From Terriglobia bacterium (lineage in GTDB: Bacteria > Acidobacteriota > Terriglobia > Bryobacterales > Bryobacteraceae), in contig JAIQFN010000006.1 in assembly GCA_020073265.1 (NCBI GenBank), positions 1 to 64,000 on the forward strand: 64,000 nt of DNA, read 5' to 3'. The notes beneath the pieces are model-generated. The model did not search any database. It saw nothing but the letters and a program-made list of their open reading frames with translations, and was not told where the DNA came from. How positions within the stretch are numbered: the first letter of the stretch is position 1; the number at the start of each line of letters is the position of its first letter. The position numbers and the translations under genes were made by a program. This document shows positions 10,765-45,389 of the stretch, one piece after another.

Positions 10765-11532
10765 CTAGTTCACCCGCGCAGCCAGAATCAGTATCGGGAA
10801 CGAGAAGTAAATCTTGCCATCCCTCCGAACCGTCTCCATCCCCAGACCGTCTTGCTCCAGCAACTCCGCGAACATCCTGCGGATTCGATCGGCATCCCCT
10901 TCCCTAGGAAACGAGCGCTCCAGCAGACCTTCCAGCTCGCCCTCGAGCCGGTCCGTCTGAACGCGCGGCGCGGCGAGACCGGCGTCCGCGAACAACGCGC
11001 ACAGCTCTTCAGGCGGCAACGCGCGGACGTGCGAAGGATCGCGCAGCTTTTCCATCTGATTAAACGCCTCCGCCTTGTTCGCCGCCGGCGCGCTGTCGGC
11101 CACCACAATGCGTCCCCCAGGCCGGCACACCCGCCGCATCTCTTTCAGCACCGCGAGCGGATCCAGAAAATGATGAAACGCGAACCGCGAGCTGACGATC
11201 GAGAATCGGCCGTCTTCGTACGGCAGCGGCAGCACGTCGCCTTCCTGCCACGTGAGATTCTCAAGCTTCTGCCGCCGCTGCAGTTCCCAGGCCTGTTCCA
11301 GCATGGCCGGAGTCAGATCGATGCCGGTGACATGCCGCGCCACGCGGGCAAACGCGCAAGCCAGAAGCCCCGGGCCGCATGCAACGTCCAGCACCGTGTC
11401 GTCGGAACCCGCCTCGGCCAACCGCACGATGCGATTGAGCGCATCTTCATTCCGAATCGCCGCGGCAGTCGAAAACGGCACCGCTTGGCGCGTGAATTGA
11501 TCGAGAATCCGCTCGTTGTGCTCCAACGCCAT
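10765..11532 (-). CDS. Class I SAM-dependent methyltransferase
   Basis: About 255 residues of the UbiE/Methyltransf_11 type. SAM-binding motif I 'VLDVACGPGLLACAFA' (~residues 47-62), motif II acidic end of beta-2 'VTGIDLTPAMLEQA', 'GDVLPLPYEDGRFSIV' for the adenine pocket, and 'EMRRVCRPGGRIVVADS' post-motif. The frame is open to 11547, but the ATG at 11532 (MALEHNERILDQF) matches the usual start. No substrate-determining feature is recognisable and the neighbours do not suggest a pathway; it could be a small-molecule or quinone-type methylase. Confidence 0.8.
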   Translation of the reverse strand: MALEHNERILDQFTRQAVPFSTAAAIRNEDALNRIVRLAEAGSDDTVLDVACGPGLLACAFARVARHVTGIDLTPAMLEQAWELQRRQKLENLTWQEGDVLPLPYEDGRFSIVSSRFAFHHFLDPLAVLKEMRRVCRPGGRIVVADSAPAANKAEAFNQMEKLRDPSHVRALPPEELCALFADAGLAAPRVQTDRLEGELEGLLERSFPREGDADRIRRMFAELLEQDGLGMETVRRDGKIYFSFPILILAARVN

Positions 11533-11583
11533 ACCTGACTTTATCAACCGCGCGGCGCGTCCACCGCCCGGGATGAGAGCTTT

Positions 11584-12774
11584 TCAGGAATCGAAAACCG
11601 GGACCTCAAACTCAACTGAAAAGTCAGCGCCCTTCAGCGGCGCGTTTGCCGAAAGCAACCAGGCAAATTTGTCGCCGGGACCACGCCAACTGTTCGGACA
11701 ACCGGCTGGAAGCTCGATGGCTACTGCCAGCGTGACTTCGCCGGCTGGCTCCTGACCGCGAATAACCGGCGTCGCCGAGTCGCATCGCCAAATGTCCGCA
11801 TTTCCGGGGGCGCTAGCCTTGCCCGTCGCGCTTCCGGGGATTGGCGACGACTCTCCAAAGGTCTTCTCGCATCGCAAGGTGAGCGCAACCTTGGCAGCGC
11901 CCGCTAACGCCTTGGGAGCGGAAATATGGCCGCGCAACGATTCTCCCGGCCGCCCCGGCATCGTGTCCAGGTGCAGATAGGTCCCGGCAAAACGCGTCGC
12001 TCGCGCCACCGCCACTAGCGCCCACCAGGCCAGCCCGGCTCCAATCAACGGAATCAACAGAAATGTGAGAGCCACATAGCGGCCGTTGCCAACCTCCCGT
12101 GGAATAACCAGCAGCACCGGAAAGGTTGCCACGTTCCAGAAAACCGCAATGCACACTTCCAGGATGGCGTCTTTTGCTTGCGATGACTTGATCGCGGGCT
12201 TCGACCACTCCACTCGTTGCTTCCAGGGTTCATCCGGATATCGCTCCATGAGGATCGCTCCCTTCCGCGCCTGTATGAATCGCAGACACGAAGAAATAAT
12301 GATCGCCCAGCCTGGTCCTCCAAAAACGACTGCAAAGACCAGATAGAACCCGATCGCCTCCCAGCGCAGGACGGGCATGAGGACCGATTCGCCCGGAGCC
12401 TTCGGATTCACGTGAGCCGGATAGGGCGCTTGCCGCGCCAGGTAAGCGTGCAATTCCCGGTAAGCATCCTGGCGAAAGGTTCCCAGGTTGTCGGAACTAT
12501 ACAGGGAGACCTGGTGGCCGGTGTATTGTTTTCCCTGGATGTTGTACCTGTAAGACGCGACGATCCTATCGGTCGATGAACCTGCCGATGTAAGTTCGAC
12601 GCTCTGCAGTGTGACAGGAACGATTGGCCATCCCTGCACGATCACAACCCTGAGCAGCGTGTGCAGGGTGAGATACGCCATCAAGGTCCCGATGGCGGCA
12701 AACGGCAGCGCCAGCAGCGAAAGGCACCCCAGGCGGGAAATCGACGTGGGAAGGAGAACGCCTATCGGACGCAT
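11584..12774 (-). CDS. DUF3592-domain membrane protein
   Basis: 396 residues with TM helices at ~15-40, ~150-175, ~215-240 and ~245-265. The extracytoplasmic segment between the first two helices has the DUF3592 features 'YRYNIQGKQYTGHQVSLYS' and 'YPAHVNPKAPGESVL'. A C-terminal soluble beta-rich region follows ('GRPGESLRGHISAPKALAG', 'LTLRCEKTFGE'). The function of DUF3592 proteins is unknown. It lies downstream of nothing obvious and is monocistronic by spacing. Confidence 0.75.
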   Translation of the reverse strand: MRPIGVLLPTSISRLGCLSLLALPFAAIGTLMAYLTLHTLLRVVIVQGWPIVPVTLQSVELTSAGSSTDRIVASYRYNIQGKQYTGHQVSLYSSDNLGTFRQDAYRELHAYLARQAPYPAHVNPKAPGESVLMPVLRWEAIGFYLVFAVVFGGPGWAIIISSCLRFIQARKGAILMERYPDEPWKQRVEWSKPAIKSSQAKDAILEVCIAVFWNVATFPVLLVIPREVGNGRYVALTFLLIPLIGAGLAWWALVAVARATRFAGTYLHLDTMPGRPGESLRGHISAPKALAGAAKVALTLRCEKTFGESSPIPGSATGKASAPGNADIWRCDSATPVIRGQEPAGEVTLAVAIELPAGCPNSWRGPGDKFAWLLSANAPLKGADFSVEFEVPVFDS

Positions 12775-12849
12775 GGTGGCCTTCCGTTACCGTCTTTGTG
12801 TTCCAACACCACATCTGAGTCTATCAACTGCCCGGCGCGTCAACCGTGA

Positions 12850-13020
12850 TTTGGTAGTGCGCTAAATCTCAACTCCTTCGTGGGCATCCCGCCTGGCCTG
12901 GTCGGAGTCACACAAATCAATTTTCAGATTCCCCCGGACGCTCCGCTGGGTGCGCAACCCGTGGTCGTGACCGTCGGCGACGTGCCAAGCGCGCCAGTCA
13001 CGCTGACCGTGACGCACTAG
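12850..13020 (+). pseudogene. TIGR03437 domain C-terminal remnant
   Basis: The plus strand reads ...FVGIPPGLVGVTQINFQIP, then ...GAQPVVVTVGDVPSAPVTLTVTH and TAG at 13018-13020. This is the end of the TIGR03437 (Solibacter uncharacterised C-terminal) domain, normally found at the end of large secreted repeat proteins. The frame upstream is closed by TGA at 12847, leaving ~56 codons and no start. Treated as a decayed gene end. Confidence 0.75.
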
Positions 13021-13042
13021 TTCGATGACTCCCGCCTACTAG

Positions 13043-13816
13043 TCACGCCGCGGTTTTCTCGGGCGCCTCCGGTTTTCCCAGAGCCGCGCTCACTCCCAGC
13101 GCCGGCACGATCATCGGCACTTGCTTGCGATATCGCCGGTACTTCTCTCCGTGAACGGTTACCAGGTCCGCCTCTTCAAACCGGATCGCCACCAAAATGT
13201 AAGCAGTCGTCATGACAGCGAAAAACAGGTGAGCCACCGTCATGACCGGCGCCGCCCAGAACGTCAGCAGCCATCCGACATACAGAGGATGCCGCACGTA
13301 GCGATAGAAGAACGGCGTCCGAAACTCCAGGTGCGTGTACTTGCGGCCCAGCAGGTAGAGATACACCTGGCGCAGTCCGAACAAGTCAAAGTGATTGATC
13401 AGGAACGTGCTCAGAAGAACGATCACCAGACCCACCACATACAAGCCCACAATGATGACCTGGGCGATCCCTCCGTCCACTCTCCAGATGGTGCCGCCGA
13501 TCGGCCGCCACTGCCAGAACATCAGCAGCAAAGCCGCGCTCGAGAACAGAACGTATGTGCTCCGCTCCACCGGCTCCGGCACGATCAGCGTCCAGGCCCG
13601 TTTGAACCAGGGTCGCGCCATTACGCTGTGCTGCAGCGCGAATAGAGCGAGTAGAGCGCCGTCGATCGCCAAAGCAGCCGCGGCCGAGCCCTCACGACCC
13701 GAGTCAATCGCCTTCGGAACGCCAAAATTGACCAGGAAACCAATCGCGTACAACAGCGTGGCAAAGAACACGCCGTAGCACGCGATACCGTAAGCAAACG
13801 CAACAATCCTTTTCAT
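13043..13816 (-). CDS. mddA: MddA-like methanethiol S-methyltransferase (NnrU/ICMT superfamily)
   Basis: 258-residue integral membrane protein with five or six TM helices. The C-terminal half has the MddA/isoprenylcysteine-methyltransferase signature: 'LINHFDLFGLRQVYLYLLG', 'FRTPFFYRYVRHPLYVGWLL', then 'ILVAIRFEEADLVTVHGEKY' and 'YRRYRKQVPM'. In characterised MddA proteins this fold uses SAM to convert methanethiol to dimethyl sulfide. ATG at 13816 is chosen because GGAG sits ~10 nt upstream; a TTG at 13825 is an alternative. Assignment to mddA rather than a generic NnrU protein rests on the RQV/HFDLFGL and RYVRHPLY blocks. Confidence 0.7.
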   Translation of the reverse strand: MKRIVAFAYGIACYGVFFATLLYAIGFLVNFGVPKAIDSGREGSAAAALAIDGALLALFALQHSVMARPWFKRAWTLIVPEPVERSTYVLFSSAALLLMFWQWRPIGGTIWRVDGGIAQVIIVGLYVVGLVIVLLSTFLINHFDLFGLRQVYLYLLGRKYTHLEFRTPFFYRYVRHPLYVGWLLTFWAAPVMTVAHLFFAVMTTAYILVAIRFEEADLVTVHGEKYRRYRKQVPMIVPALGVSAALGKPEAPEKTAA

Positions 13817-14177
13817 ATCAGTCAAGCTCCATCTTCACGACACGCTTGCCGCAGCCTCGCGCATTCCACTTCACTGGACGGCGAGCTGGGCAGCGATTCG
13901 GTTCGAACACCACTGGACGGCGATGGGCTTGCGCCGGAGGAGTCGCGACCGGAAGCGTCGCGCTCAAAATCGGCGAGAACAAGCAGTCTCGATACCATCG
14001 CTGAATTCCCCTGTAGACAGGTTGAAGCCCGGCGCCGTTTGGAAACGGCTACCGCAGCCTCTCACTTAAGACATGCGAAATCTGCCAGGAGAATTGAACG
14101 AGGTTGGGCGACTGCGCGATTTCCGGCCTGCGAGACCGAAGCACAGCTCTGTTTGTCGCGAACGCATGCGCGCTGGA
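13817..14177. other. Intergenic, no gene seen (361 bp)
   Basis: Separates mddA from the catalase gene (the catalase stop is at its right edge). It contains two imperfect copies of CACTGGACGGCGA (13872-13884 and 13911-13923). No convincing ORF, tRNA or terminator hairpin was found. Confidence 0.5.
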
Positions 14178-15128
14178 CTACTCGCTGGCGGCCCGGCGCC
14201 GGCGGCCGCTCGCCAGATAAACCGCGGCGCGAGGCTCCAGCAACGGGTCAGCCGATGGATCGATTCCGTCCACGCGCGGGATGGGGTCGAAGATCATCCG
14301 GCGCGCTTCGACATTATCGTCCGAAATGCGCGCCGTCAGAGCGATGCTGCCGAAATTGATTCGGGGGCGATCCTCTGGCCACTGCGCGGTGGCATCGTCC
14401 ACCGTGTCGCCCTTCCCCGCCAATTGAACCACGACATTCATCTTGACGGGACCCTTCGCGATTCTTTCGGCCAGTTCCTCAAACAGGAAGTCGGGACCTT
14501 TCGCCCCAGCCGCCGCTCGATCCAAGTACTCGTTTCCGGCCGCGGGCACTATCCGATAGCGTCCCCATTGCTCGGCGCCGTCCCGGTTGATGAACTTGTA
14601 GGCTGTCACGGAAAAGAACGACTCCCGCGCAAAGCTGCTGGGAATCGGCTTCGGCAACTGAACGAACGCCAAAGCCTTCGGATGCGCTCCCAGAAAAACC
14701 TCGATGGGCGACGGCTTCACCGCGCCTGGACCGCTGGCCGCGGCAGCGCGCAGGAATTCTACGAATTCCTCGGCCGTTCGCGTCGGGAATCCGTCGGCCG
14801 AGTGACCGATGATATCCGTGTGAACGTGTTCGGCGAGATGAAAGCGAACCGCAAAGCCGCGCGGGCTCGCCAGGTTGCCATCGTTGTCGGCTACCGCCGG
14901 GAAGCCGGCGAAGTCCGAAAAGCGAGCGGTCACCGGCGTCGAGGCTCGCTGCGCGTGAGGCGCGCGCGTCAGCAAGCTTGCGTCTGGCGATGGTGTGAAG
15001 GTTCCCGAAAGCATCACACCCTTCGCATGCGCCGGCCGGAAGCCGGGATGCAGCCCATTCAGTTTGTCCAAAGCCTGGATTGTGTCTTGGACCAGATTCG
15101 TCGCGGGTTTGTTAGTAGGCGTAGCCAT
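14178..15128 (-). CDS. Small catalase-family heme peroxidase
   Basis: 316 residues, i.e. the catalase core without the C-terminal flavodoxin-like domain (SrpA/catalase-related family). The distal histidine is in 'FRPAHAKGVMLSGTF', the distal Asn region is 'DNDGNLASPRGFAVRFHL', and the proximal heme tyrosine motif lies near the end in 'LEPRAAVYLASG' (R-x3-Y). The start is set at ATG 15128 (MATPTNKPATN); the frame is open 9 codons further upstream without an RBS. With the nearby perR-katG pair this gives the region two heme peroxide-scavenging enzymes. No signal peptide is visible, so it is presumably cytoplasmic. Confidence 0.85.
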   Translation of the reverse strand: MATPTNKPATNLVQDTIQALDKLNGLHPGFRPAHAKGVMLSGTFTPSPDASLLTRAPHAQRASTPVTARFSDFAGFPAVADNDGNLASPRGFAVRFHLAEHVHTDIIGHSADGFPTRTAEEFVEFLRAAAASGPGAVKPSPIEVFLGAHPKALAFVQLPKPIPSSFARESFFSVTAYKFINRDGAEQWGRYRIVPAAGNEYLDRAAAGAKGPDFLFEELAERIAKGPVKMNVVVQLAGKGDTVDDATAQWPEDRPRINFGSIALTARISDDNVEARRMIFDPIPRVDGIDPSADPLLEPRAAVYLASGRRRRAASE

Positions 15129-15372
15129 GCGCTTGTGGATGCGGGCGCATACCAAGGAGTTGCATCTACTTCCGTGACAGCCCCGTTACAATGTGACGCC
15201 AGCTACATTCTAACGGCGAGCGTCCCGGAGGCACGCGCACGTGTTACACGAAGAGGCGTGAAAGAAGAACCATCGAACGCACCCAATCCCGGTCATTTCG
15301 CCCCCCCTTCGTTCCAGGACCGCCATATCGCTCGTCCGGGGATGACAATCCGCTTCCGCCAACGGTGCGCCG

Positions 15373-16446
15373 CTATTTGCGCCTCGCGCCGCGGATCTCC
15401 TTGACGATGCGGTCAGCCAGCGCTGGAGCCGACCAAAGTTCGTTTTCATCGGGGTACGAGGCCCGCGTCCAAAGGTTGGGTCCGGCGGTAATCTCCTTTT
15501 CCATCACCGTCTCATCCGGACTGCGCCGCAACGTAATCTCCGCGGTTAGTTTCTTCTCTCCGGCTCCCCGGTACCAGGCCCCTTCCGCCTTCATCATCGT
15601 GCCCTCCAGGACCAGCGCCTCACCGTCCGGCGAATCCGCCACCTCGTTTTCACCCACGACAGTATCGGTCAGCCCCGCTTCTTTGAGTTTTTCGAGGAGC
15701 TGCGCATACAGGAAATCCTGGAACTCATTGGGGAGAACCACGCTCTGTGCAATCCGGAAGCGCCGAACCTCGAGCGCCACCCGTCCCGGCCCCCCGCCTT
15801 CGTTCAAAATAGGCGCTGGCGCCACCGTGGACTTCAACTTCGCGTTGTAGAAGAAATTTGTAATGCCTCGCGCCAGGGCCGTCTCCAGGCTTGCCTGGAT
15901 CGCTTCTTGCGCCTTGTTCTTTCTGTCCTCTTTTTTCCTTACTGCAGTCCCAAGAGCGAAAATGTCAGTGACGGCGCCTGTCCCATGGTCCGTGACGCTG
16001 ACCCACATCTCGAGCTTGGCGTAGTATTCGCGCCAGGTCGCCTCGGCCAGTCCGAAACGATACAGCTGTGCGGAAATGGAGTAGTCCGCTGAGGCTTCGT
16101 CCTGAGCGAGCCCGCCTCCCGACCGCAAGGATTCAACCAGCGCTTCCCGCACGATCTCCGCGGCTTCCCGCTGCCAGGTGATGTCTGTCATCGTGAGCTC
16201 GCGGTTGAAGTTGACTCCTGGCGGAAGCCACGCCGGATTTGGGCTGGTCCAGGTATTTGCTGTTATTACGGATGATCTCTCGGCGCTACCGGCTAGCTCG
16301 GCGACGTAAAAGGTCTTCCCCTTCAGAAACGCCGGTAGCTTCAGTGGTTGACGCAGGTAGGGGTTAACCACAAGGGTCTGGTCGGACGCGGCGCCCGAAA
16401 AACAGAACAAAACTCCCAGGATCGCGATTGAACTTACAGACGGCAT
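15373..16446 (-). CDS. Secreted protein of unknown function
   Basis: 357 residues starting at ATG 16446, eight nt after AAGGAGG; the GTG at 16452 is too close to that site. A signal peptide (MPSVSSIAILGVLFCFSGAASD) is followed by a presumably periplasmic mixed alpha/beta protein. Two halves look related: each ends in an oligomer-like 'E..IQASLETALARGITNFFY' or 'ADRIVKEIRGARR' helix after strands such as 'SAQLYRFGLAEATWREYYAKLEMWV' and 'LEGTMMKAEGAWYRG...LTAEITLRR'. This pattern recalls LptE/ABC-auxiliary-lipoprotein (DUF4410-like) folds, but I do not recognise the family. Confidence 0.6.
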   Translation of the reverse strand: MPSVSSIAILGVLFCFSGAASDQTLVVNPYLRQPLKLPAFLKGKTFYVAELAGSAERSSVITANTWTSPNPAWLPPGVNFNRELTMTDITWQREAAEIVREALVESLRSGGGLAQDEASADYSISAQLYRFGLAEATWREYYAKLEMWVSVTDHGTGAVTDIFALGTAVRKKEDRKNKAQEAIQASLETALARGITNFFYNAKLKSTVAPAPILNEGGGPGRVALEVRRFRIAQSVVLPNEFQDFLYAQLLEKLKEAGLTDTVVGENEVADSPDGEALVLEGTMMKAEGAWYRGAGEKKLTAEITLRRSPDETVMEKEITAGPNLWTRASYPDENELWSAPALADRIVKEIRGARRK

Positions 16447-16880: not shown

Positions 16881-19637
<2,757 letters not shown>

Positions 19638-19695: not shown

Positions 19696-20190
19696 TCACC
19701 TTCGCTTGAGCAATAGCGTGATCAAGAACTTTTGCGCTTCGTCCTCGTGTCGAATCTGTCGCCAACTATCGAAGGCGTCCTCGACTGACTGAATCTTGCT
19801 GAGCACGTCAGTCCGTGTCCATTTGGTATCGCCATCGTAGTCTGCCTTGTTTCGATGTTCGCGCATCTGGACAAACGTGTCTGTGATGCGGTGGAGATGC
19901 CGACCTACGGCCAATTGCCCCCCGGCCTGAGGGCTAGCTTTGAAAGATTTCTCCAATTCATCCCGCTTGGTCCTACAGGCTGTGGACATTGCGCCATGGT
20001 CCAGCATGCGAGCGAACTTTCCGCGTTCGGCGGCTCGCTTCCAATTCTTAGCCGTCTCGGTGCTCAAGAGATGGAAAAGCGCGTAGTAAGCGGTGGATAC
20101 CGCCCGGCGCAGGCTCGCTTCTTTGGGGTGCTTAGGTTCCCGATTCGCGAGATGACGCGCCTGCTCAAGCAGATCCTGCGGGAACGACAT
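19696..20190 (-). CDS. HEPN-domain protein (UPF0332-like)
   Basis: 164 residues from ATG 20190 (MSFPQDLLEQARHLA). The frame is open further upstream but overlaps its partner gene. The HEPN four-helix features are 'LRRAVSTAYYALFHLLS' (~residues 27-43) and the C-terminal 'MREHRNKADYDGD', the R-x-K-A-D-Y form typical of UPF0332-like HEPN proteins rather than the strict R-x4-6-H RNase motif. HEPN proteins are commonly the toxin or effector half of small two-gene modules. Its start is one nt after the stop of the upstream 137-codon frame (20192), so the two are translationally coupled. Bracketed by katG-end repeats. Confidence 0.75.
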   Translation of the reverse strand: MSFPQDLLEQARHLANREPKHPKEASLRRAVSTAYYALFHLLSTETAKNWKRAAERGKFARMLDHGAMSTACRTKRDELEKSFKASPQAGGQLAVGRHLHRITDTFVQMREHRNKADYDGDTKWTRTDVLSKIQSVEDAFDSWRQIRHEDEAQKFLITLLLKRR

Positions 20191-20191
20191 T

Positions 20192-20515
20192 TTACTGGCG
20201 TTCCCAGAATGGGTCTTGCAGGGATTTCTGTTCGCTGCTGCTTCGGAAGTTGAAGTAAGTCTGGAGACCCAATTCCTCGGCTCTGATCTTATCCCGTACC
20301 GTCTCCACGATGCGGTGAGTCGTGTTCCGAAGTCTCCCAGCGTCAGCGGCATGATCGGAGATGACCACGCGAAAGAAGAGCGAGATCTCTCCCTGAACAT
20401 CCTCAGCAAAGCTGTACATTATGCGAATGACGTCGGGCGCTAAAGCCTTCTCGGCGCTTTGAACAGCGGCTCGAATTTTCTTCTCATCGACCGGCGTGTG
20501 AGGAACGATCGGCAC
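20192..20515 (-). CDS. Small partner protein of the HEPN module, unknown function
   Basis: 107 residues if started at GTG 20515 (VPIVPHTPVDEKKI); the frame is open to a GTG at 20605, which lies in the katG-end repeat and is less likely. Core sequence 'IRIMYSFAEDVQGEISLFF' followed by 'RVVISDHAAD' and 'GLQTYFNFRSSSEQ'. I recall similar small proteins directly upstream of HEPN genes, but no named family. By position it is the candidate antitoxin or partner. No nucleotidyltransferase (MNT) motif is present, so this is not a standard HEPN-MNT pair. Confidence 0.6.
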   Translation of the reverse strand: MPIVPHTPVDEKKIRAAVQSAEKALAPDVIRIMYSFAEDVQGEISLFFRVVISDHAADAGRLRNTTHRIVETVRDKIRAEELGLQTYFNFRSSSEQKSLQDPFWERQ

Positions 20516-20602
20516 GAGTCTATTATCCCGCTTCTGACCAACGGCCGCAAAAATGCTTTGCACGTCGGCTTGCGCCGCGCCGCCACTATCGCGGCGGCGT
20601 GA

Positions 20603-20653
20603 CACAAGGTGATGAATCCGGATCGCTACGACCTTCGCTGATTTCGGCGCAAC
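20603..20653 (+). pseudogene. Second copy of katG 3' end (katG remnant)
   Basis: Reads HKVMNPDRYDLR-stop against katG's [12 protein letters not shown]-stop. Five of 39 coding bases differ, three of them synonymous. Similarity continues ~12 nt past the stop codon (ATTTCGGC vs ATCTCGGG). It is in the same orientation as katG, 1017 bp downstream. It lies directly outside the HEPN module and ends where the next gene's stop begins. Confidence 0.8.
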
Positions 20654-21525: not shown

Positions 21526-21739
21526 ACTCTTCCTTTTCCCGCCGGACCAAAATCAAGGACAGCGAGGTCTCTGCCGGGCAGTCTAGCACTTTCCCGGGAT
21601 GACAAACGCGGCCCGCTAGCGGCGAAGTCTGGTCGGCGGCATGCGCGCCCTGAATGCGAACTTCGGGCCGTCCAAACACGGCGTCTTCACCAACCGGCCG
21701 AGACTGGCACGGAAGCTTTCGGTCGAACCAACTCGGGAA
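21526..21739. other. Intergenic region holding katG scrap
   Basis: Between the secreted protein and folD. Apart from the katG-derived segment at 21628-21704, I see no gene. Confidence 0.5.
21628..21704 (+). pseudogene. Internal katG fragment, near-identical
   Basis: Starts TCTGGTCGGCGGCATGCGCG and matches katG 19275-19352 (encoding '[15 protein letters not shown]', then 'HGVFTNRPE') over ~77 bp, with one substitution (CAAACAC vs CAATCAC) and one missing C that breaks the frame. The low divergence implies a recent duplication, independent of the older katG-end copy at 20603. Confidence 0.85.
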
Positions 21740-29450: not shown

Positions 29451-30329
29451 TCAGGCGCGCTTCTCGCGCGCCGCCGAGCGCAGCATCGTAATCGCCGCGT
29501 ACACCACCGCGACCACCACCAGCCATCGAACCGCGTTCAACGGAAGCGACTTGACGATCAGCGCCGCGATCAGCACGCCCGGAAGTCCGCCCAGCGCCAG
29601 ACCCAGCGCCTGCCGGGGACTGTAGCTGTCCATGCGGATGAAGCGCGCGCTCGCTACCGGCATCAGGAACGCGCACGATCCCATCATGATCGGAAACGCC
29701 GCTTTGGGATTCATGCCCAGCAGGCTGACCAGGATCATGCAGGGCGCGTACAGGCCGATGCCGAGCGTCATCAGCGCGCCCAGCAGCACGCTGCCGGCGA
29801 TGCCCGCGGCGAGCTTCCAGTTCTCCAGGATCAGCGCCGCGCCGCCGGCCGGAAACAGGTTGAGGTTGGTCATCAGGAAGAACGCGGCCGCGGCCAGCAA
29901 CGCGAACCCCATCCCGATCTGCACTTTTCTCCGCGGCCACCGGCCCACGATTCCGGCGCCGAACCAGGCGCCCAGGACCGACGCGCCGATCAGCCCCACC
30001 AGCGTCAGCATGTCGACTTGCACGATCAGGATGAACAGGAACGCTTCGAGCAGCGTGGGCGCGGTGTGGCCGACGTTCAGCGTTCCGGGGATCTTCTCGT
30101 CCGGCACCATGCGCCGGAATTTGAAGATCGCGGTGGTCGGCGCGAACGAACCGATGCCCAGCGTGTCGAAGAAATTGGTGACGCACCCGAGCAGCAACTC
30201 GAACAGCGTCGGCACGCCCGGCTTGCGCCCCTTGCCTTGCAGCCAGACCCACACGAACCCCACGGAGAAGATTCCGAGGGCCACGAACAGCCACCCGCGC
30301 GCATTCAGCACTGCGAGCAACAATAACAT
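29451..30329 (-). CDS. TauE/SafE-family permease
   Basis: 292 residues with about eight TM helices in two halves. Features: 'LLLGCVTNFFDTLGIGSFAPTTA' and, in the second half, 'LMTLGIGLYAPCMILVSLLGMNPKAAFPIMMGSCAFLMP', matching the repeated GxGxxxxP-type core of the family. TauE/SafE proteins move small organic or sulfur anions such as sulfite, sulfoacetate and taurine-derived species. It is the last gene of a four-gene run (porin, Cache protein, MCP, permease) with gaps of ~19-20 nt, which suggests linked sensing and transport. Confidence 0.82.
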   Translation of the reverse strand: MLLLLAVLNARGWLFVALGIFSVGFVWVWLQGKGRKPGVPTLFELLLGCVTNFFDTLGIGSFAPTTAIFKFRRMVPDEKIPGTLNVGHTAPTLLEAFLFILIVQVDMLTLVGLIGASVLGAWFGAGIVGRWPRRKVQIGMGFALLAAAAFFLMTNLNLFPAGGAALILENWKLAAGIAGSVLLGALMTLGIGLYAPCMILVSLLGMNPKAAFPIMMGSCAFLMPVASARFIRMDSYSPRQALGLALGGLPGVLIAALIVKSLPLNAVRWLVVVAVVYAAITMLRSAAREKRA

Positions 30330-33849: not shown

Positions 33850-33951
33850 CTACTGTGTAACCAGTTCTTCGCGGGCGCCGATGTGGCGGAGGCAGCGGTC
33901 GATCCACTGCTTGGTCAGTTTTTCCTGAACGCCGTTTTGCGAGAGGCGAGT
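33850..33951 (-). pseudogene. Second copy of flavoprotein gene 3' end
   Basis: 33860-33951 matches 38133-38224 at 89 of 92 positions. On the minus strand it is still in frame and ends ...REELVTQ-stop (stop complement CTA at 33850-33852), against ...REELVAI-stop for the intact gene. It is a direct repeat, same orientation, 4273 bp away, on the far side of the IetAS cassette. Confidence 0.88.
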
Positions 33952-34080
33952 TCCGTCACTGCTCACAAACGCCAGCCCTGGTCAGGTCCCTTCACACTCG
34001 TTATATCTCCGCGCCTGATTTGATCTCGAGAAACCATGGACTCAATTGTGATAGGAACGGTCGACGGAATGCTAGCCACG

Positions 34081-34148
34081 TCTTGAAAATCAAGAATGCT
34101 TGTTTTGCGTGTTTACTTCACTTACGTGCACTTAACGAAGGTGAAGTA
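34081..34148. promoter_or_regulatory. Candidate operator sites upstream of ietA
   Basis: Two perfect inverted repeats: TCTTGA-AAA-TCAAGA at 34081-34095, and TACTTCAC...GTGAAGTA with a 19-nt loop at 34114-34148. They lie ~390-450 bp before the ietA ATG. No regulator gene is in the cassette. Confidence 0.3.
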
Positions 34149-34532
34149 TCCATTTCCACGTATGAACCACACCACTCTCCCACTGAAACAAGATACCTCT
34201 ACGTCGCCTACGCGCCGAGTAACCAAGGGAGAAGGCAACTGAATCTTAGCTCACTACGAAAAAAATGAGCAGAGCTGATCGCCCGATCCACTGCCCAATC
34301 TGCTGGCAGGGTCTCGATCTTATGGCGGCCTCACACGACACATGGATTAACACGGACTGCCCCAGCGATGCCGCAACTGCGACAAGCAGCTCAGGAACGA
34401 TCGTTGTTGAGTTTGCTATTCCACACGAAGTTCGCTTGGACCGCCTTGGGTTTGGAAAACACTCGTGCGACTATAGAACTCAGTGATGCCAATACCGAGC
34501 GAACAATCAGTGCGAGTTGGCAAGGGGAAAGC

Positions 34533-35513
34533 ATGAGCATGGCTCGGCACGTGATCGCGCTCCTCAAGAGTCATCTTGAAGGTGACGATAAGGAATTTCT
34601 TTCAGTAGCGATGCAGGCCGCGGCCCACGAGGCCCGCCTTGGCCATATAGCGGTGGCACAGCAGTTACGCGACCTGATCGACGAAGCGAAACGACGAGGA
34701 TCCGCTGTCCAGAAACGACCTGGGCAGCTGCTTGTACTCGAACCTCGGGGCGAGCTAGCCAATCTTCTTTCCGTGCAGATACCCGGAACAAGGCTATCAG
34801 ATATGGCGCTTCCTGACTGCCTAGCGGAACGGCTCAAGCGCATTCTCATCGAACAGCGCCAACAGAAACAGTTGCGTGCTCACGGGCTCGGGCCGCGACG
34901 CAAACTTTTGTTTACTGGGCCGCCAGGTTCTGGCAAGACGATGACCGCTTCCGCTATCGCGGGCGAACTTCACCTTCCTCTCTTCACCATCATGTTGGAG
35001 GGGCTAATAACGAAGTTCATGGGCGAGACCGCAGCGAAGCTTCGCCTGGTGTTTGATGCCATGCGGCAGACACAAGGGGTTTATCTCTTCGATGAATTTG
35101 ACGCGATTGGTGCCCGCCGCAATCAGCTCAATGACGTCGGTGAGATCCGACGGGTGCTCAACTCTTTCCTTCAGCTTCTTGAAAAGGACACTTCGCACAG
35201 CCTGATTGTCGGGGCAACAAACCATCCTGATTTACTAGACCGCGCGTTATTCCGTCGATTTGATGACGTCATCGAGTATTCGCTTCCAGAGGTCAAAGTA
35301 GCTGAGCAGATCCTCACCAGAAAGCTGGTCGCCTTCCAAATAGCAGATCTCGACTGGTCGCGAATCTTGCCCGAAGTCGAGGGGCTGAGCCAAGCTGAGC
35401 TTGCTCGTGCCAGCGAGGAGTCAGCCAAACACGCGGTGTTGAACGGAACAACGCGTATCACTACCGAGGCCCTTCTTGCCGCCCTCCACGAACGAAGGGC
35501 GACCTCGCGCTAG
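34533..35513 (+). CDS. ietA: IetA-type AAA+ ATPase of IetAS defence module
   Basis: 326 residues from ATG 34533, preceded by AAGGGGAAAGC. An N-terminal helical region (~1-90) is followed by one AAA+ module: Walker A 'GPPGSGKT' (129-136), Walker B 'VYLFDEFD' (~183-190), sensor 1 'GATNHPDLLD' with Asn230, and arginine finger region 'ALFRRFDD' (239-245). Its stop (35511-35513) abuts the ATG of a subtilisin-like protease gene (35514). This ATPase-protease pair is the arrangement of IetA-IetS, known as an incompatibility/toxin-antitoxin-like locus of Agrobacterium Ti plasmids and as an anti-phage system. The cassette is bracketed by copies of a neighbouring gene's end, supporting horizontal acquisition. 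Confidence 0.85.
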   Translation: MSMARHVIALLKSHLEGDDKEFLSVAMQAAAHEARLGHIAVAQQLRDLIDEAKRRGSAVQKRPGQLLVLEPRGELANLLSVQIPGTRLSDMALPDCLAERLKRILIEQRQQKQLRAHGLGPRRKLLFTGPPGSGKTMTASAIAGELHLPLFTIMLEGLITKFMGETAAKLRLVFDAMRQTQGVYLFDEFDAIGARRNQLNDVGEIRRVLNSFLQLLEKDTSHSLIVGATNHPDLLDRALFRRFDDVIEYSLPEVKVAEQILTRKLVAFQIADLDWSRILPEVEGLSQAELARASEESAKHAVLNGTTRITTEALLAALHERRATSR

Positions 35514-37968
35514 ATGCCAGACTTTCCCCGCGACTTGCCCCATTTGCATTTGTTCAAGCGTGGAAAGGCTGAATCATATACCAGCAAGATACCGCCACCT
35601 AGGCATAAACTGCCTCAAAGGGATCGTGTCAAACAGGCCGAGACACTTCGGACTGCGCTAAGCGGGGCGCTGGCAGACGTCGAGCTGCGCCGTCGCGAGC
35701 GCGTTGTAGGAATTGCCGAAGGGACTCCTGGGTTTTACCTCGAATTCCAGATCCCAGCTGGTTCAGAAAATGCTGCAGAACTGCTAGAAGATCGCCGGAA
35801 ACACATAGAGCTTGTTGCGTTACGTAAGGAAGCCGACGATGGTCCGGCCCGGGCCACCGTCTTTGTACCGGATACGGCAGCCGAGCATTTCCTCCGGAAA
35901 ATCGAGTCTTATCGCACCGAGAACACGCTTAAGGGTAAGCCCAAGAATGAGGCTCTTGTGGCTCGTCTCGACACGGTCGCGCTCGCAGCGTTACTTTCAC
36001 TCTATACCGACGACACAGCTTTGTTACCGCGCCCGGGTGAAGGCATCTGGTGGGAAGTTTGGCTTCGCCAAGGACATGCCGAAATCTTTGGACCGCGTGG
36101 CGACTCGCCTTGCAATCCCGCTGCAAGCGCAGCGACTCATTTTCCCCGATCGCGAAGTCCGTTTGATTTATGGGGACGAAGTTATGCTCGCTCGTCTATT
36201 TGTAAACAGTGATGCGATCGCTGAGCTACGTCGAGCCAAAGACACGCCATCCACCTTCATGGAGTGGTCGAACGTCGAGCAGGCAGCGTCGGCAACATCT
36301 CTGGTGGCCCGTTTGCAGGGCCCAGAAAATCGCAACGTAAGTGTCTGTTTCCTTGATACTGGTGTGACGCAGTCACATCCCTTATTAGCGCCGGCTCTCG
36401 ACCTAGCGGATGTACAAACATATGACCCGAGTTGGTCCAGCGGAGATCAGCGTGGCCACGGAACCAATATGGCTGGAACATCACTCTACGGTGATCTATT
36501 GCCTTTATTGTTATCTAGCGGCCCCGTTACCTTGACGCATTGTCTGGAATCAGTCAAGATGCTGCCGGACGAAGACGAAAATGAGCCTAGACTGTATGGG
36601 GCAATCATGGCGGAATCAGTTGCGCGAGCCGAGGTCCAGGCACCGAAACGTCGTCGAGCGATTTGCATGGCCGTTACGAGCGACTTAGGAACCAATCGTG
36701 GCCGCCCGTCTTCATGGTCGTCTAAGGTGGACCAGCTCTGTTTCGGTGATGATGACTATAGGCGCCTCTTTTTCGTTTCTGCAGGCAACGTCCGCGATGG
36801 CTTATCAAAAGCCGGTTATCAGGCACGCAACGAAACTGAGCCGATTGAGAATCCGGCGCAGGCCTGGAATGCAGTCACCGTAGGTGCGTATACCGAAAAG
36901 ATAACGATCACCGATGCGACGTACTCTGGATGGCAGCCGATCGCGCCTGCAGGCGATTTGTGTCCGACAAGCCGCACATCCCTTACCTGGGAGCGGCAAT
37001 GGCCCCTCAAGCCTGATGTTGTTCTCGAGGGCGGAAACTGGGCCGCCTTGGGGGATGAATGCGTTTGCCCAGATGACTTAGGTTTATTGACGACGTATCG
37101 TGATCCCGCAACACGACACTTCGATGTCTTTCGCGACACGAGCGCAGCCACGGCCCTCGCTGGCAATCTTGCCGGGCGGATCTGGGCCACTATGCCCGAA
37201 CGCTGGCCGGAGACGATTCGGGCGTTGATTGTCCATTCCGCCAATTGGACTCCTGCGATGAAAGGACAGTTCTCGGGTGCAACAAGCGAGCAGCACAAAC
37301 GTGCACTCCTCCGCAAGTATGGTTACGGTGTGCCGAGTTACGCACTTGCGGTGTTCAGCGCCGCCAACGATCTTACACTCATCGCGGAGGACGAACTCCA
37401 ACCTTTTTGGAAGGACCCGAACGGCGGAATCAAAAGCCGCAACATGAATCTTCACCTGTTACCATGGCCACGAACCGAGCTTGAGAATCTTGGCGAACTC
37501 GAAGTCGAACTTCGAGTGACACTTTCGTACTACATTGAGCCCAACCCCGGCGAGCGCGGTTGGCTTCGTAGACATCGGTATCAGTCGCACAACCTGCGGT
37601 TCGCGGTTAAGCGGGCGCTTGAATCTGTTGACGCATTTCGCGGTCGTATTAATAAGGCGGCCACGACCGAGGAGGAGGGCTTCGGAGCAATCGATGCCGG
37701 TTCAGACCATTGGTACCTCGGACGCATTCGGAACGTTGGATCAATCCATTCTGACTATTGGCACGGTACAGCGGCCGAACTTGCGCAACGTTCTGCGATT
37801 GGCGTCTATCCTGTAGGTGGATGGTGGAAAGAAAACCCTTCTCATCTACGGTACGACCGAACTGTCCGATATGCGCTAATTGTCTCGATTCGCGCAATGA
37901 ATGGTGAGATCGATATCTACACACCTGTACGGGTACAGATTGCGACACCTGTTGAGATAACGACCTGA
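35514..37968 (+). CDS. ietS: IetS-type S8 (subtilisin-like) protease, interrupted by a frameshift
   Basis: Product of ~818 residues if the frame is restored. The N-terminal part (35514 to ~36070; MPDFPRDLPHLHLF...) and the rest lie in different frames. Continuity shows a +1 shift at ~36070-36074: 'WWEVWLRQ' ends one frame and 'DMPKSLDRVATRLAIP' begins the other, consistent with one extra G in CAAGGAC. The catalytic triad is intact: Asp in 'VCFLDTGVTQSHP' (~36354), His in 'QRGHGTNMAG' (~36456) and Ser in 'FRDTSAATALAGN' (~37141). A C-terminal beta-rich domain follows. There is no signal peptide, so it is probably cytoplasmic with IetA. It starts directly after the ietA stop. Confidence 0.82.
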
Positions 37969-38122
37969 GTGTCAGACCGCTGCGTCCGGCCACAGCACGT
38001 ATGTCACTGATTCGGGATCTCTCGCATGGCGGCGCCTTAGTTTACCTGCTAGGCCTGGGCCCTAGAATGTTCCGCTTGTCCATCCGAATTCCTGTGATCG
38101 ATCACTTTTCTATCTCCAACCC
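37969..38122. other. Spacer between ietS and the flavoprotein gene
   Basis: 154 bp between convergent stops. No gene or strong terminator was recognised. GGCCTGGGCCC (38053-38063) is locally palindromic. Confidence 0.4.
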
Positions 38123-41100
38123 TCAGATGGCCACCAGTTCTTCGCGGGCGCCGATGTGGCGGAGGCAGCGGTCGATCCACTGCTTGGTCAGCTTTTCCTG
38201 GACGCCGTTTTGCGAGAGGCGGGTGTGGAGGCTGGCGAAATCGACGTGGTCCATTTGCTGGTCCTGGTTGAAGCAGGAGAACACCACGGTCTCTTCGCCG
38301 GTGAGCGGGTCCTTATGAAGCTGGAGGCACTGGGCGCAGATTTCCTTCATCATGCACTGCATGGGCGAGTTGATGCTGGCGATGGCCTTGTGCCCTTTCT
38401 TCAGATACGGCGCGAGCACGCCGTGGCGGGCGCGCTGGACGGCGTGCATCATGGCGTCGGAGCCGATGACCACCAGGCGGTCGACCTTGCTGAAGGGGAT
38501 TTCGGGCTCGTCGAGGTCGCCACGGGCGTAGGCGGCCATGCCGTCGACGATGTTTCCGACGAAGGCCTTGTCCTGCACGCGGTCGGGCGTGAAGCCGGGC
38601 GCTTCGTCGCAGCACCAGACCACTATGTCGGCGGCCTTTTCGATCTCTTCGACCTTGTAGCGGTCGATCATCTTTTTGTATCCGGCGAAGTAGATGGTGC
38701 GGGAGCCGGAAGCGCGCAGTTGTTGCCCAATGGAAAACAAGACGGCGTTGCCGAGGCCGCCGCCTGCGAGCAGCACGGTCTCGCGCGAGGGAGTTTCGGT
38801 GGGAGTTCCGGTGGGACCCATGAGGATCACCGGCTCGCCGGGCTTGAGCAGAGTGCAGAGGTCGGATGAGCCGCCAACTTCGAGGACGATGGTGGAGAGC
38901 AGACCTTTTTCGCGATCGACCGAAGCACCGGTGAGCGCGAGGCCTTCCATGGCGAGCGTGGTGCCGTTGACGCGCGGGGCCAGCGATTCGTAGTTCTGGA
39001 GCCGGTAGAATTCGCCGGGCTGGAAAGCGCGCGCGGCCATGGGGGCGCGCACCACGACCTCGACGATGTTCGGCGTGAGACGGATCACGTTTTCGACTAC
39101 CGCGCGCAGCTCGTTGTTTAGTCGTTCCACGAGAACTGCGGGGCCAGGCGCCGTTGGCGTCCGGCGGGCGAGGACGCGCGAGACTACGGGATAACCTTGC
39201 TTGGCGCTGGCCATGGCTTTGACGACGTTGCCGGCGAAGGACGGATGCAGGTCGCCGAAGAAGCTGATGCCGCGGCCGTCGGGCCGCATGGAAGTGAGCA
39301 CGCGGGCGTGCTGGGGCTTGGCGACGCGTTCGGGCTGAACCGGGCGGCCATCGTCATCGACGGCCTGAAACCAGCGGCCATCCAGGAACAGATTGGCGGG
39401 ATCTTCGCGGCCGAGCACGGTGTTGGGCTGAGTGCCGGCGGCGACCAGGATGGATCTCGCCGCGAGTCGCACTGGCTCGCCGGTCGGCGACATTTTTCCG
39501 CGTTCGGGTTCGTATTTGTGGCGAGTGAGATGCAGGGCCGAGGCGTGACCGTAGCGGTCGACTTCGACGGCGGCGGGCGCCAGGCACTCGGCGAAGCGGA
39601 CGCCTTCCTCGAAGGCTTTCCAGACTTCTTCGTGGTTCAAGGTGTAGCTGGGCGAATCGACCAGGCGGCGGCGGTAGGCGATGGTGACGCCGCCCCAGGA
39701 ATTCAGCAGATGGATGAACTCCGGCCGCCGGCTCTCGAGGGCGGCGGCTTCCCGCTCGGCGCGAATGGCGCGGGCATGCGCGATGAACTCGTCGGCGGTT
39801 TCGGCTTCTTCCTGGCTCCATCCGGCGCGGACTTCGGTCTCGCCTTTCTCGGCGGCCAGCGTCTCGTAGCGCTTCAGGAATTTTTCGACCTGCACGACGT
39901 AGTAGGCCAGCGATTCGGTGGCGGTGTCGATGGCGGTGAGCCCGCCTCCGATCACGACAATGGGCATGCGGATCTGGAGGTTGGCGACCGAGTTGGCTTT
40001 CGCGGCGCCGGTGAGTTGCAGGGCCATCAGGAAATCGGAGGCCTGGCGCACGCCGCGCGCGAGTCCGTTCTTCATGGGGATGACGGTGGGGCGGCCGGCT
40101 CCGGCGCAGATGGCTACGTGGTCGAAGCCCATTTCAAAGGCGCTGTCGATGGTCATGGCGCCGCCGAAGCGCACGCCGCCGAACATGGCGAACTCGCGGC
40201 GGCGTTCGAGCAGCAGGCGGATCATCTTGAGAAAATTCTTGTCCCAGCGGACGGTGATGCCGTACTCGGCCACGCCTCCGAAGCCGGCCATGACGCGGTC
40301 GTCGAGCGATTCGTAGATCTCGCGGATGTCGCGAATGGGGCGGAAGCGCGAGCGCTGGCCGAGCGCGTCGATGCCGGAGAGATCCGAAGGCAGCGGTTCG
40401 ATCTTGAGGCCGTCCACGCCGATCACGGTGTGGCCTTCGTTCATCAGATAGTGCGCGAGGGTGAAGCCGGCGGGGCCGAGGCCGACGACCAGGACTTTGT
40501 AGCCGCTTTCGGGGAGCGGCAGCGGGCGCGCGAAGTTCAGCGGGTTCCAGCGCGTGAGCAGGCTGTAGATTTCGAAGCCCCACGGAAGTTCCAGCACGTC
40601 CTTGAGCGTTCGAGTTTCAATTTGAGGGATGTCGACGGGGTCCTGCTTCTGATAGATGCAGGCTTTCATGCAGTCGTTGCAGATGCGATGGCCGGTGGCG
40701 GCCGCCATGGGGTTGTCGATGGTGACGATGGCGAGCGCGCCGACGCTGTTGCCCTGCTGCTTGACGACGTTCATCTCCGAAATCTTTTCGTCCAGCGGGC
40801 AACCGGCCAGGGTGACGCCGAAGACGGTCTTCTTGAACTCGCCGGTTTTTTCCTTGAGGCCGGACGAGCAACTGTCCTTGGCCTGGTTGTGGCACTTGAT
40901 GCAGTAGTGCGACTGATCGAGCGCGCCGGCCAGCGCCATGCCGTGGTCGGTGAGCTGGAAACCTTCGCGGTATCGCCAGTGCTCCTGGGGCAGGAGCAGT
41001 TTGGAGATGCTCGCGTCCTGGATGGCGTGGACCGGGACCAGGTGCATCTGGTCGAGCTTGTGTGGGACCTTGAAGAGCACGTCGCGGCGGTGGTGTTCGA

Positions 41101-41641
41101 TTCCAGCGGGGGAGAGCGCGGCCCAGGCGGCGTAACGGGCGGCGGTCTGGAGTTCGGCGGCGTGTTCGGGTTCGTGGTCGAGCCAAGCGCTGACGTGGGT
41201 GAAGAAGCTTTTTTCGGTGAGCGGTTCGCCGAATTTGGATTCGAGCTCGCGGGCGAGCGCGGGGCCGTCGATGGTTGAGGCTTGTTCCCTGGTGACGCCG
41301 CTGATGGCGCGCTTCTGGATGAATTTGCGCTTGAAGGCGAAGAACGCGGCGGATTGGTTGTGGCGGGCCTGGAGCGCTTCGATTTGCTTGGTGATTCCGA
41401 AGAGCTGGCCGAGGAAGTCTTCGACATGCGGGGCGAGCGCGATGATCAGCTCGGATTGATCTTTGGGCGCGACGGCGGCGGGGTTGGAGCGGGCCTGGAG
41501 GAGGCGGGCGTGGAGCGGGGCGTCGGCTCGGGCGAGTTCGGCGAGGAACGCGGCGTCGAGGCGGGTGAGGCCTGGGCGCGCGTAGAGGTCCTCAAACGCG
41601 ACGCCGAAGCCTAGATCGAATTGGCCGGAGACGGCGGACAT
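38123..41641 (-). CDS. GltD/PyrK-like fusion: large FAD/FeS NAD(P)H oxidoreductase
   Basis: 1172 residues. The N-terminal ~350 residues are helical with Cys clusters ('CIKCHNQAKDSCSSG', 'ICNDCMKACIY') that can hold FeS clusters. A GltD/NfnB-type pyridine-nucleotide-disulfide oxidoreductase follows (~380-830; 'VVGLGPAGFTLAHYL', 'VVIGGGLTAIDTATES', 'VAAGTQPNT'). Next is a PyrK/NfnA-type FAD/NAD domain (~860-1090; 'VLLAGGGLGNAVLFSIGQQL'). The end carries a [2Fe-2S]-type Cys motif 'CMMKEICAQCLQL...FSCFNQDQ'. In one chain this joins the two halves of NADH-dependent ferredoxin:NADP oxidoreductase-like systems. Its last codons are duplicated at 33850-33951, beyond the IetAS cassette. Confidence 0.82.
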   Translation of the reverse strand: MSAVSGQFDLGFGVAFEDLYARPGLTRLDAAFLAELARADAPLHARLLQARSNPAAVAPKDQSELIIALAPHVEDFLGQLFGITKQIEALQARHNQSAAFFAFKRKFIQKRAISGVTREQASTIDGPALARELESKFGEPLTEKSFFTHVSAWLDHEPEHAAELQTAARYAAWAALSPAGIEHHRRDVLFKVPHKLDQMHLVPVHAIQDASISKLLLPQEHWRYREGFQLTDHGMALAGALDQSHYCIKCHNQAKDSCSSGLKEKTGEFKKTVFGVTLAGCPLDEKISEMNVVKQQGNSVGALAIVTIDNPMAAATGHRICNDCMKACIYQKQDPVDIPQIETRTLKDVLELPWGFEIYSLLTRWNPLNFARPLPLPESGYKVLVVGLGPAGFTLAHYLMNEGHTVIGVDGLKIEPLPSDLSGIDALGQRSRFRPIRDIREIYESLDDRVMAGFGGVAEYGITVRWDKNFLKMIRLLLERRREFAMFGGVRFGGAMTIDSAFEMGFDHVAICAGAGRPTVIPMKNGLARGVRQASDFLMALQLTGAAKANSVANLQIRMPIVVIGGGLTAIDTATESLAYYVVQVEKFLKRYETLAAEKGETEVRAGWSQEEAETADEFIAHARAIRAEREAAALESRRPEFIHLLNSWGGVTIAYRRRLVDSPSYTLNHEEVWKAFEEGVRFAECLAPAAVEVDRYGHASALHLTRHKYEPERGKMSPTGEPVRLAARSILVAAGTQPNTVLGREDPANLFLDGRWFQAVDDDGRPVQPERVAKPQHARVLTSMRPDGRGISFFGDLHPSFAGNVVKAMASAKQGYPVVSRVLARRTPTAPGPAVLVERLNNELRAVVENVIRLTPNIVEVVVRAPMAARAFQPGEFYRLQNYESLAPRVNGTTLAMEGLALTGASVDREKGLLSTIVLEVGGSSDLCTLLKPGEPVILMGPTGTPTETPSRETVLLAGGGLGNAVLFSIGQQLRASGSRTIYFAGYKKMIDRYKVEEIEKAADIVVWCCDEAPGFTPDRVQDKAFVGNIVDGMAAYARGDLDEPEIPFSKVDRLVVIGSDAMMHAVQRARHGVLAPYLKKGHKAIASINSPMQCMMKEICAQCLQLHKDPLTGEETVVFSCFNQDQQMDHVDFASLHTRLSQNGVQEKLTKQWIDRCLRHIGAREELVAI
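38133..38224 (-). repeat. Flavoprotein 3'-end direct repeat, right copy (gene end)
   Basis: A 92-bp block matching 33860-33951 with three mismatches. Identity begins 10 bp inside the gene end (after the stop and last codons) and continues into the coding region. Confidence 0.88.
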
Positions 41642-43730: not shown

Positions 43731-43752
43731 GTCACGGTTCATTTTCTCTTGC

Positions 43753-43797
43753 GTTCACACGAGTGTGAACGCGGCACGCAGGAGTGCGTGCGCCACG
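43753..43797. repeat. Double-hairpin repeat, family B copy 1
   Basis: GTTCACAC-GA-GTGTGAAC (43753-43770) followed by GCGGCACGCAGGAGTGCGTG CGCCACG, whose core folds as GCACGCA/TGCGTGC. Same layout as 45345-45389. It lies in the gap just downstream of the VOC gene stop. Confidence 0.8.
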
Positions 43798-44312: not shown

Positions 44313-45341
44313 ATGAAGGGCTTCTTTCTTGGCTTGGTTCTGGGATCGTTCCTGGCGATGTTGGCTGCCGCGCAACCGAAGGCGGCAACGTCGGCGCAAC
44401 ACCCGGTGATTACCATCGAACAGGTGAACAAGTGGGAGACGGAGCTTTCCAACTGGGGCCGCTGGGGCAAGGACGACGAGCGCGGATCGCTGAACCTGAT
44501 TACGCCGCAGAAGCAGGTGCAGGCGGCAAAACTGGTGAAGGACGGCGTGACGGTGACGCTGGCGCACTTCGCGAGCCTGGAGAAGGCGGAAGACAATTTC
44601 AATTTCGGTCCGACCAAGCACGAGATGTTCGGCGTGGATCCGAAGACGCACATACCGCGCTTCGCGCTGGACATGATCAGTTTCGGGATTCACGACGGCA
44701 CCAACTCGCACATGGACGCGTTGTGCCACTACCGGCTGCAGCGCGACGGCCAGTGGGTGGTGTTCAACGGGCATCCGCAGGAGCTGGATGAGAAGGGCTG
44801 CAAGGCGGACGGCATCGATCGCATGGGTCCCGGTATTTTCACGCGCGGCATTCTGGTGGACATTCCCCTGATGCGCGGAGTCGACTATCTGGAGCCGGGG
44901 ACGCCGATTTATCCCGAGGATCTGGAGGCGTGGGAGAAATACGCGCACGTGAAGATCTCGAGCGGCGACGCGGTGTTCGTGCGGACGGGGCGGTGGGCGC
45001 GGCGCGAGAAGGTGGGGCCGTGGAATGTGGGGAGGCAGGCGGCGGGGCTGGATGCTTCCACCATGCCGTGGTTCAAGCAGCGCGACATTTCGGTGCTGGG
45101 CGGCGATGGAGTGAACGATGTGCAGCCTTCGGGCGTGCAGGGGCAGGGCGAGGCGGCCGGGCGGCCGGTGCATACGCTGACCATCGCGGTGCTGGGCGTG
45201 CCGCTGGTGGATAACGCGTATCTCGAGGATGTCGCGAAGGAATGCGCGAAGCGGAAGCGCTGGGAGTTTTTGACGACGGCGCAGTTCATGCGGATTCCGG
45301 GCGGGACGGCGACGCCGTTTAATGGGCTGGCGACGTTCTGA
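44313..45341 (+). CDS. Secreted cyclase-family metal hydrolase (kynurenine formamidase-like)
   Basis: 342 residues with signal peptide MKGFFLGLVLGSFLAMLAAAQ. PF04199 signature: 'GIHDGTNSHMDALCHY' (H-x-G-T-x2-H-x-D-x2-C/H metal site) at ~residue 125, 'GILVDIPLMRGVDYLEPGTPI' and 'GDAVFVRTGRW'. Cytoplasmic family members hydrolyse N-formylkynurenine or open cyclic amides; this exported version has unknown substrate. CGGAGG gives a good ribosome binding site. The gene ends 9 nt before thiD, so they may be co-transcribed. Confidence 0.85.
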   Translation: MKGFFLGLVLGSFLAMLAAAQPKAATSAQHPVITIEQVNKWETELSNWGRWGKDDERGSLNLITPQKQVQAAKLVKDGVTVTLAHFASLEKAEDNFNFGPTKHEMFGVDPKTHIPRFALDMISFGIHDGTNSHMDALCHYRLQRDGQWVVFNGHPQELDEKGCKADGIDRMGPGIFTRGILVDIPLMRGVDYLEPGTPIYPEDLEAWEKYAHVKISSGDAVFVRTGRWARREKVGPWNVGRQAAGLDASTMPWFKQRDISVLGGDGVNDVQPSGVQGQGEAAGRPVHTLTIAVLGVPLVDNAYLEDVAKECAKRKRWEFLTTAQFMRIPGGTATPFNGLATF

Positions 45342-45344
45342 GGC

Positions 45345-45389
45345 GTCCCCATGAGTGGGGACGCGGCACGCACGAGTGCGTGCGCCACG
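45345..45389. repeat. Double-hairpin repeat, family B copy 2
   Basis: GTCCCCA-TGAG-TGGGGAC followed by GCGGCACGCACGAGTGCGTG CGCCACG (hairpin GCACGCA-CGAG-TGCGTGC). It supplies the thiD start codon and first ~14 codons (MSGDAARTSACATK). Confidence 0.85.

Follow-up and report, generated by a model that had tools for sequence, protein, structure and literature searches.

How does a pair of defence-type genes come to lie between two copies of the end of a neighbouring gene when no recombinase gene lies with it? This question is raised by the window, i.e. the whole stretch of 64,000 nucleotides that was analysed, in which an IetA/IetS-like cassette is found behind a large flavoprotein gene and is bracketed by direct repeats of the 3' end of this gene (Table 1). 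The reading towards which we lean, with due reserve, is a CIME-like site-specific insertion, whose integrase was lost or acted in trans.

Table 1. Features of the flavoprotein locus in the window and of related loci in other genomes.
Feature	Position	Strand	Basis
Target gene, 1172-aa FAD/NAD(P) oxidoreductase, glutamate-synthase-beta-like	38123..41641	-	NCBIfam NF005128
Gene-attached repeat copy, attL-like, 3' end of target gene	38133..38224	-	Repeat and genome search
Far repeat copy, attR-like, displaced gene end	33860..33951	-	Repeat and genome search
Ancestral last codons and stop (VTQ, stop) of target gene	33850..33859	-	G004 alignment
Proposed site core AAGCAGTGGATCGACCGCTGCCT	33890..33912; second occurrence 38163-38185	-	Core pattern
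Permease gene on far side	29451..30329	-	Synteny: in G004 it follows the single end of the flavoprotein gene
Inserted cassette	33952..38132	.	54.9% G+C vs 61-65% in flanks and target gene
Gap between far repeat and ietA, 580 nt, no recognisable remnant	33952..34532	.	Recombinase gene here in close relatives
ietA-like AAA+ ATPase, 326 aa if started as in relatives	34533..35513	+	Walker A GPPGSGKT, Walker B LFDEF
ietS-like gene, N-terminal part, frame 1, up to frameshift	35514..36090	+	ORF comparison
ietS-like gene, S8 subtilisin-like protease part, other frame	36080..37968	+	Motifs DTG, HGT, TSA (catalytic-type) present
Short non-coding left end of cassette	37969..38122	.	
Stacked units behind flavoprotein gene, each closed by a copy of the gene tail	L166 (G176:C32) 11390-16080		
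Tyrosine recombinase genes upstream of ietA	L274 4463-5344; L273 10292-12654		G171, G177

The two repeat copies are 92 nt long and share 89 of these positions (97%; BLAST E of approximately 4e-37 within the window). Throughout the 6.41-Mb genome the 92-mer matches at these two places only, and a search with a 25-nt core, which permitted up to three mismatches, returned the same two places and none for the reversed control. Both copies are read in frame to a stop codon of their own, the gene-attached copy as TRLSQNGVQEKLTKQWIDRCLRHIGAREELVAI (...GAREELVAI) up to the stop at 38123-38125 and the far copy as ...GAREELVTQ up to the stop at 33850-33852. All three differences between them are silent third positions, and beyond both stop codons the sequences are unrelated despite the high identity of the repeats. 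Coordinates, length and identity of the repeat, as well as the second in-frame end with its own stop (REELVTQ versus REELVAI), had been given in a preliminary description made from the sequence, and our repeat search and reading frames agree with it. The target gene scores 821 bits against NCBIfam NF005128, below the cut-off of 1072. The core that we propose as recombination site is an imperfect dyad, in which 7 of the 9 arm positions pair, located within a 58-nt block that is identical in both copies; the core site and the crossover position at the end of the flavoprotein gene are both proposals.

Relatives indicate which of the two ends is the original one. In G004, a genome of the same genus, the flavoprotein gene has a single end, VTH with TAG as stop codon. 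Because G004 aligns with the far copy through its stop codon (81% over 102 nt of DNA), whereas the match of the gene-attached copy stops at 38133, the far copy is the native end, which was displaced, and the tail now found on the gene arrived with the cassette, i.e. the last residues of the flavoprotein (VAI, stop) are now cassette-derived. The preliminary description had regarded 38133-38224 as the real end of the gene, which applies to its present function as gene tail but not to the ancestral tail, while its view of the far copy as a displaced end was right in substance, though this can be demonstrated only via relatives. An insertion at the 3' end of the flavoprotein gene is supported by these comparisons, since G004 has a single end followed downstream by a counterpart of the window permease, and since the G+C content of the cassette is lower than outside. 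However, other genes downstream are not the same in G004 and in the window, so that the empty site does not amount to a base-perfect junction. No relative carries a second flavoprotein gene at this position among the orthologous loci compared.

The same gene end was used in a second genome. Extra copies of it occur in only two of the 96 family genomes that have this end, the window genome and G176. In G176 the gene tail occurs three times in frame (171 nt, about 94% identity), and these copies surround two related units of 2.3 and 2.2 kb, which carry on the opposite strand genes for an RHS-like protein and for a secreted protein of 238 aa. G177, a congener of G176, has a single end (ELVAQ, stop) like the farthest G176 copy and the same downstream genes. 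Hence, empty sites in relatives, which the preliminary description had proposed to look for, exist in both G004 and G177, and other modules behind the same flavoprotein gene exist in the form of the two G176 units with their other cargo. Between the G176 gene end and the first copy there are ten differences, nine of which affect third positions (binomial p = 4e-4). Non-silent changes relative to the gene end number three in the far copy and one in the middle copy, a pattern as would be expected if ends were displaced in turn, the far end first. Moreover, the new stop codon lies within about three codons of the repeat end in the window as well as in G176, as expected for a unit that carries its own substitute tail. 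Since the differences are mostly silent in both genomes, the copies diverged as functional coding ends prior to being joined, and such prior divergence speaks against a simple duplication at insertion.

The cargo is probably an anti-phage gene pair, judging from profile matches of both genes: the ATPase matches the PADLOC model IetA (PDLC02196, 2.3e-68) and the protease the PADLOC model IetS (PDLC04233, 1.6e-29) and Pfam S8 (1.4e-58). As in IetAS systems (IteA/IteS in NCBIfam), the AAA+ ATPase gene is followed directly by the S8 protease gene, but the NCBIfam equivalogs stay far below their cut-offs, with 192.7 of 510 bits for IteA and 49.5 of 900 bits for IteS. The probable start of ietA is at 34533, as in the relatives, rather than at 34368. 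The IetAS pair of the preliminary description is thus retained as far as the PADLOC models go and not at the level of the NCBIfam cut-offs, and the protease is not a single ORF, which it had overlooked: ietS is frame-shifted near 36.08-36.10 kb and runs in two frames, while it is one ORF of 816-830 aa in the relatives G171, G177, G237 and G008 and in a viral contig. Either the IetAS system is inactive in the window genome, or the assembly is in error at the frameshift; because of this frameshift a working pair is doubtful, and if the assembly is correct here, the cassette is unlikely to be active in defence. Remnants of ietA with frame breaks were also seen at L278 (G079) and L280 (G081), in the former near a predicted Fic-like gene.

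If the cassette was inserted by a site-specific enzyme, where is this enzyme? The preliminary description had noticed that no integrase or transposase lies between the repeats, and indeed neither such a gene nor a remnant was detected in the window cassette or in either G176 unit, including the 580 nt between the far repeat and ietA. Downstream of 162 orthologues of the flavoprotein gene, phmmer searches with three query integrases, which have moderate sensitivity, found no integrase. Among the 237 family genomes, the window genome and G176 are the only ones with more than one match to a degenerate core pattern, no helper site was found, and an attP-like core had no match in viral contigs and only short matches (E above 0.01) in phages and plasmids. 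The genomes are without exception fragmented drafts and are mostly metagenome-derived, and the absence of an integrase from these collections is no proof. Elsewhere in the window genome, Phage_integrase exceeds its cut-off in eleven matches; one of these is truncated and related to the G171 recombinase, and no link of the eleven matches to the flavoprotein site was found. Relatives of the IetAS pair give a different picture. A tyrosine recombinase gene lies directly upstream of ietA in G171 and G177, overlapping ietA by a few bases in G171, and a large serine recombinase gene occupies the same place in the viral contig L294; the IetA proteins of the relatives with a tyrosine recombinase are 79-82% identical to that of the window. 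Because these recombinases are carried beside ietA, this IetAS lineage evidently travels with recombinases. Flanking direct repeats of the gene-tail type were absent from the other IetAS loci. The locus in G237 has repeats of about 300 nt, which are members of a dispersed repeat family.

According to the CIME-like reading, a small mobile unit made of the IetA-IetS pair and a substitute flavoprotein-gene tail would have entered at the 3' end of the gene, most likely in the 58-nt block that both copies share unchanged. The unit would have exchanged the native final codons (VTQ, stop) for its own (VAI, stop) and pushed the native end to the far side, and the host gene would have been kept intact through the substitute tail. 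The attL-like and attR-like gene ends would remain without an integrase, either because it was lost or because one acted in trans. With regard to the integration proposed earlier, the insertion at the gene 3' end and the displacement of the native end hold up at the strength given above, whereas site-specific recombination, the position of the crossover and the source of the recombinase are what we infer.

Several other classes do not apply. An autonomous integrative element (ICE, IME or prophage) was rejected, as there is no own integrase or transposase. An integron gene cassette lacks support, as GTTRRRY is absent from the left end and from both copies of the repeat. A DDE transposon would need inverted ends, and no terminal inverted match of at least 8 nt was found within about 100 nt of the ends; a DDE transposon with target-site duplication disagrees with the missing transposase and with a repeat that is 92 nt of coding sequence with silent differences.

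The layout itself is of a known kind. The e14 prophage and phage 21 at icd of E. coli supply an alternative 3' end to the gene and leave the original end on the far side; these are prophage-type elements with an encoded integrase, in which they differ from the window unit, which shares the substitute-tail layout. CIMEs are defined by att sites that are kept without integration genes (PMC5704250). The window shares with them cargo between attL/attR-like repeats at a gene end, the lack of integration and transfer genes and the empty sites, and in G176 also tandem accretion, but the units are very short (2.2-4.3 kb), no integrase-bearing parental element is known for the site and recombination is inferred, so that the element is described here as CIME-like and not filed as a CIME. 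In Dehalococcoides, 15 ssrA islands have the repeat without an integration module (PMC3146451). These islands are similar in their repeats of a single-copy gene 3' end, the many cases without integration module and the tandem arrays, and they differ in that the target is the tmRNA gene, the repeat has 20 bp and a serine recombinase family, DsiB, is known (PMC3146451), in contrast to a protein gene as target, an in-frame repeat of 92-171 nt and no known helper in the present case. Novel aspects are the gene that serves as target, the very small units, the length of the in-frame tail and the occurrence of two independent integrase-free cases at one protein gene.

The window and its relatives contain further repeats. 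The 3' end of katG (17366-19624) at 19572-19630 is repeated on the same strand at 20589-20647 (83% over 59 nt, with stop). The tails surround two small minus-strand ORFs (19696-20409 and 20192-20605) with no Pfam or PADLOC match and with a lower G+C content (55.9 vs 62.4%). Relatives of katG have single ends, and the far copy in the window is decayed. An internal 78-nt piece of katG (19276-19353) recurs with 97% identity at 21628-21704, 2.35 kb downstream near folD, and the order in which this piece and the tail copy lie is not that of a second katG after simple decay. At L341 (G000:C4), the tail of a lipase-maturation-factor gene (LMF1; 7891-8068) is repeated at 9057-9233 (178 nt, 88%), with the last approximately 110 nt in frame to an own stop, and the repeats surround a PIN-domain (VapC-like) gene. 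Contig C4 is probably a contamination in G000 or G005; since it is identical to G005, another genus, over 4407 bp of DNA, this case counts for the family and not for the window genome. Other repeats in the window are a dispersed, REP-like repeat of about 50 nt (43744-43797 and 45336-45389, several also in the flanks of G001 and G004), a 54-nt direct repeat (11513-11566 and 12793-12846, 81%) at the start of a methyltransferase-like gene, with a single DUF3592 gene of 396 aa immediately between the two repeat copies, and a tandem repeat at 1-2580 with units of about 276 nt that are 73-79% identical. A crude survey counted three gene-tail and four gene-head duplications in 742 kb of the window genome, four and one in 946 kb of family loci, and none of either type in 958 kb of Proteobacteria. 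Because the head cases are mostly short dispersed repeats and the tail cases L202 and L178 are tandem paralogues or repeats, no significant tail excess is claimed.

The lack of an integrase in any unit, locus or collection searched counts against the CIME-like reading, and two unrelated integrase-free units at one site are more than simple decay predicts. Furthermore, the long repeats of 92 and 171 nt suit homologous recombination too. The main alternative, possible though less probable, is a homologous insertion free of any integrase, in which a circle with tail and cargo, set free from an array of a related strain, would have been taken up through one homologous crossover within the tail of the gene. 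It is equally tentative that such units would be gained, lost and built up in tandem by way of the 92-171-nt repeats alone. This alternative would account for the absent integrase, for the long repeats at 94-97% identity and for the tandem units of G176, and also for the silent-site divergence, if the donor tail came from a working orthologue. The absence of a helper in 162 loci, the window genome and 237 family genomes is likewise consistent with it, as are the integrase-free gene-tail duplications around other cargo at LMF1 and katG. However, 92 nt are short for a RecA-dependent crossover, the initial joining of the cargo to a gene tail is left unexplained and identity ends near the stop codon in both cases.

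That a 92-nt segment was merely doubled as unrelated DNA was joined, i.e. a tandem or target-site duplication without any tail-carrying element, is very improbable and disfavoured. It needs no special enzyme and results in the identical layout, but the copies differ at silent positions only and not at random, and unrelated sequence follows both stops behind nearly identical repeats. A new stop within three codons of the repeat end in both genomes is unlikely by chance, and the flavoprotein gene would have been struck independently at least twice. Finally, we regard it as highly unlikely that strain variants were joined at a common gene tail during assembly of this metagenome-derived genome: its 131 contigs, 3.3% contamination, the cross-contamination seen with contig C4 and an ietS frameshift that could be a sequence error would be compatible with such an artefact, but the contig is 138.8 kb long, window katG and flavoprotein gene match the genus at the expected 77-84%, the two copies are told apart by three silent sites and by the sequence past either end, and the identical layout is present in the independent genome G176.

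Defence genes are known in islands, but the movement of small modules without a mobility gene is rarely visible. At this locus donor tail, displaced native tail and empty sites are all readable, and a second genome contains stacked units, which makes it a clean small case of defence-gene movement, here in a peat-soil Acidobacteriota bacterium. It is conceivable, if rather doubtful, that the family holds a class of integrase-free gene-tail cassettes with IetAS, PIN-type or secreted cargo, each equipped with a copy of a host gene 3' end, which enter and stack by homologous recombination; this idea rests on few and uneven cases and is not claimed here. If it were true, the working gene tail itself would be the mobility signal. 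If the unit was mobilised in trans as part of the CIME-like reading, its integrase would be a concrete thing to look for; otherwise the locus would point to an integrase-free spread of small modules via conserved gene ends.
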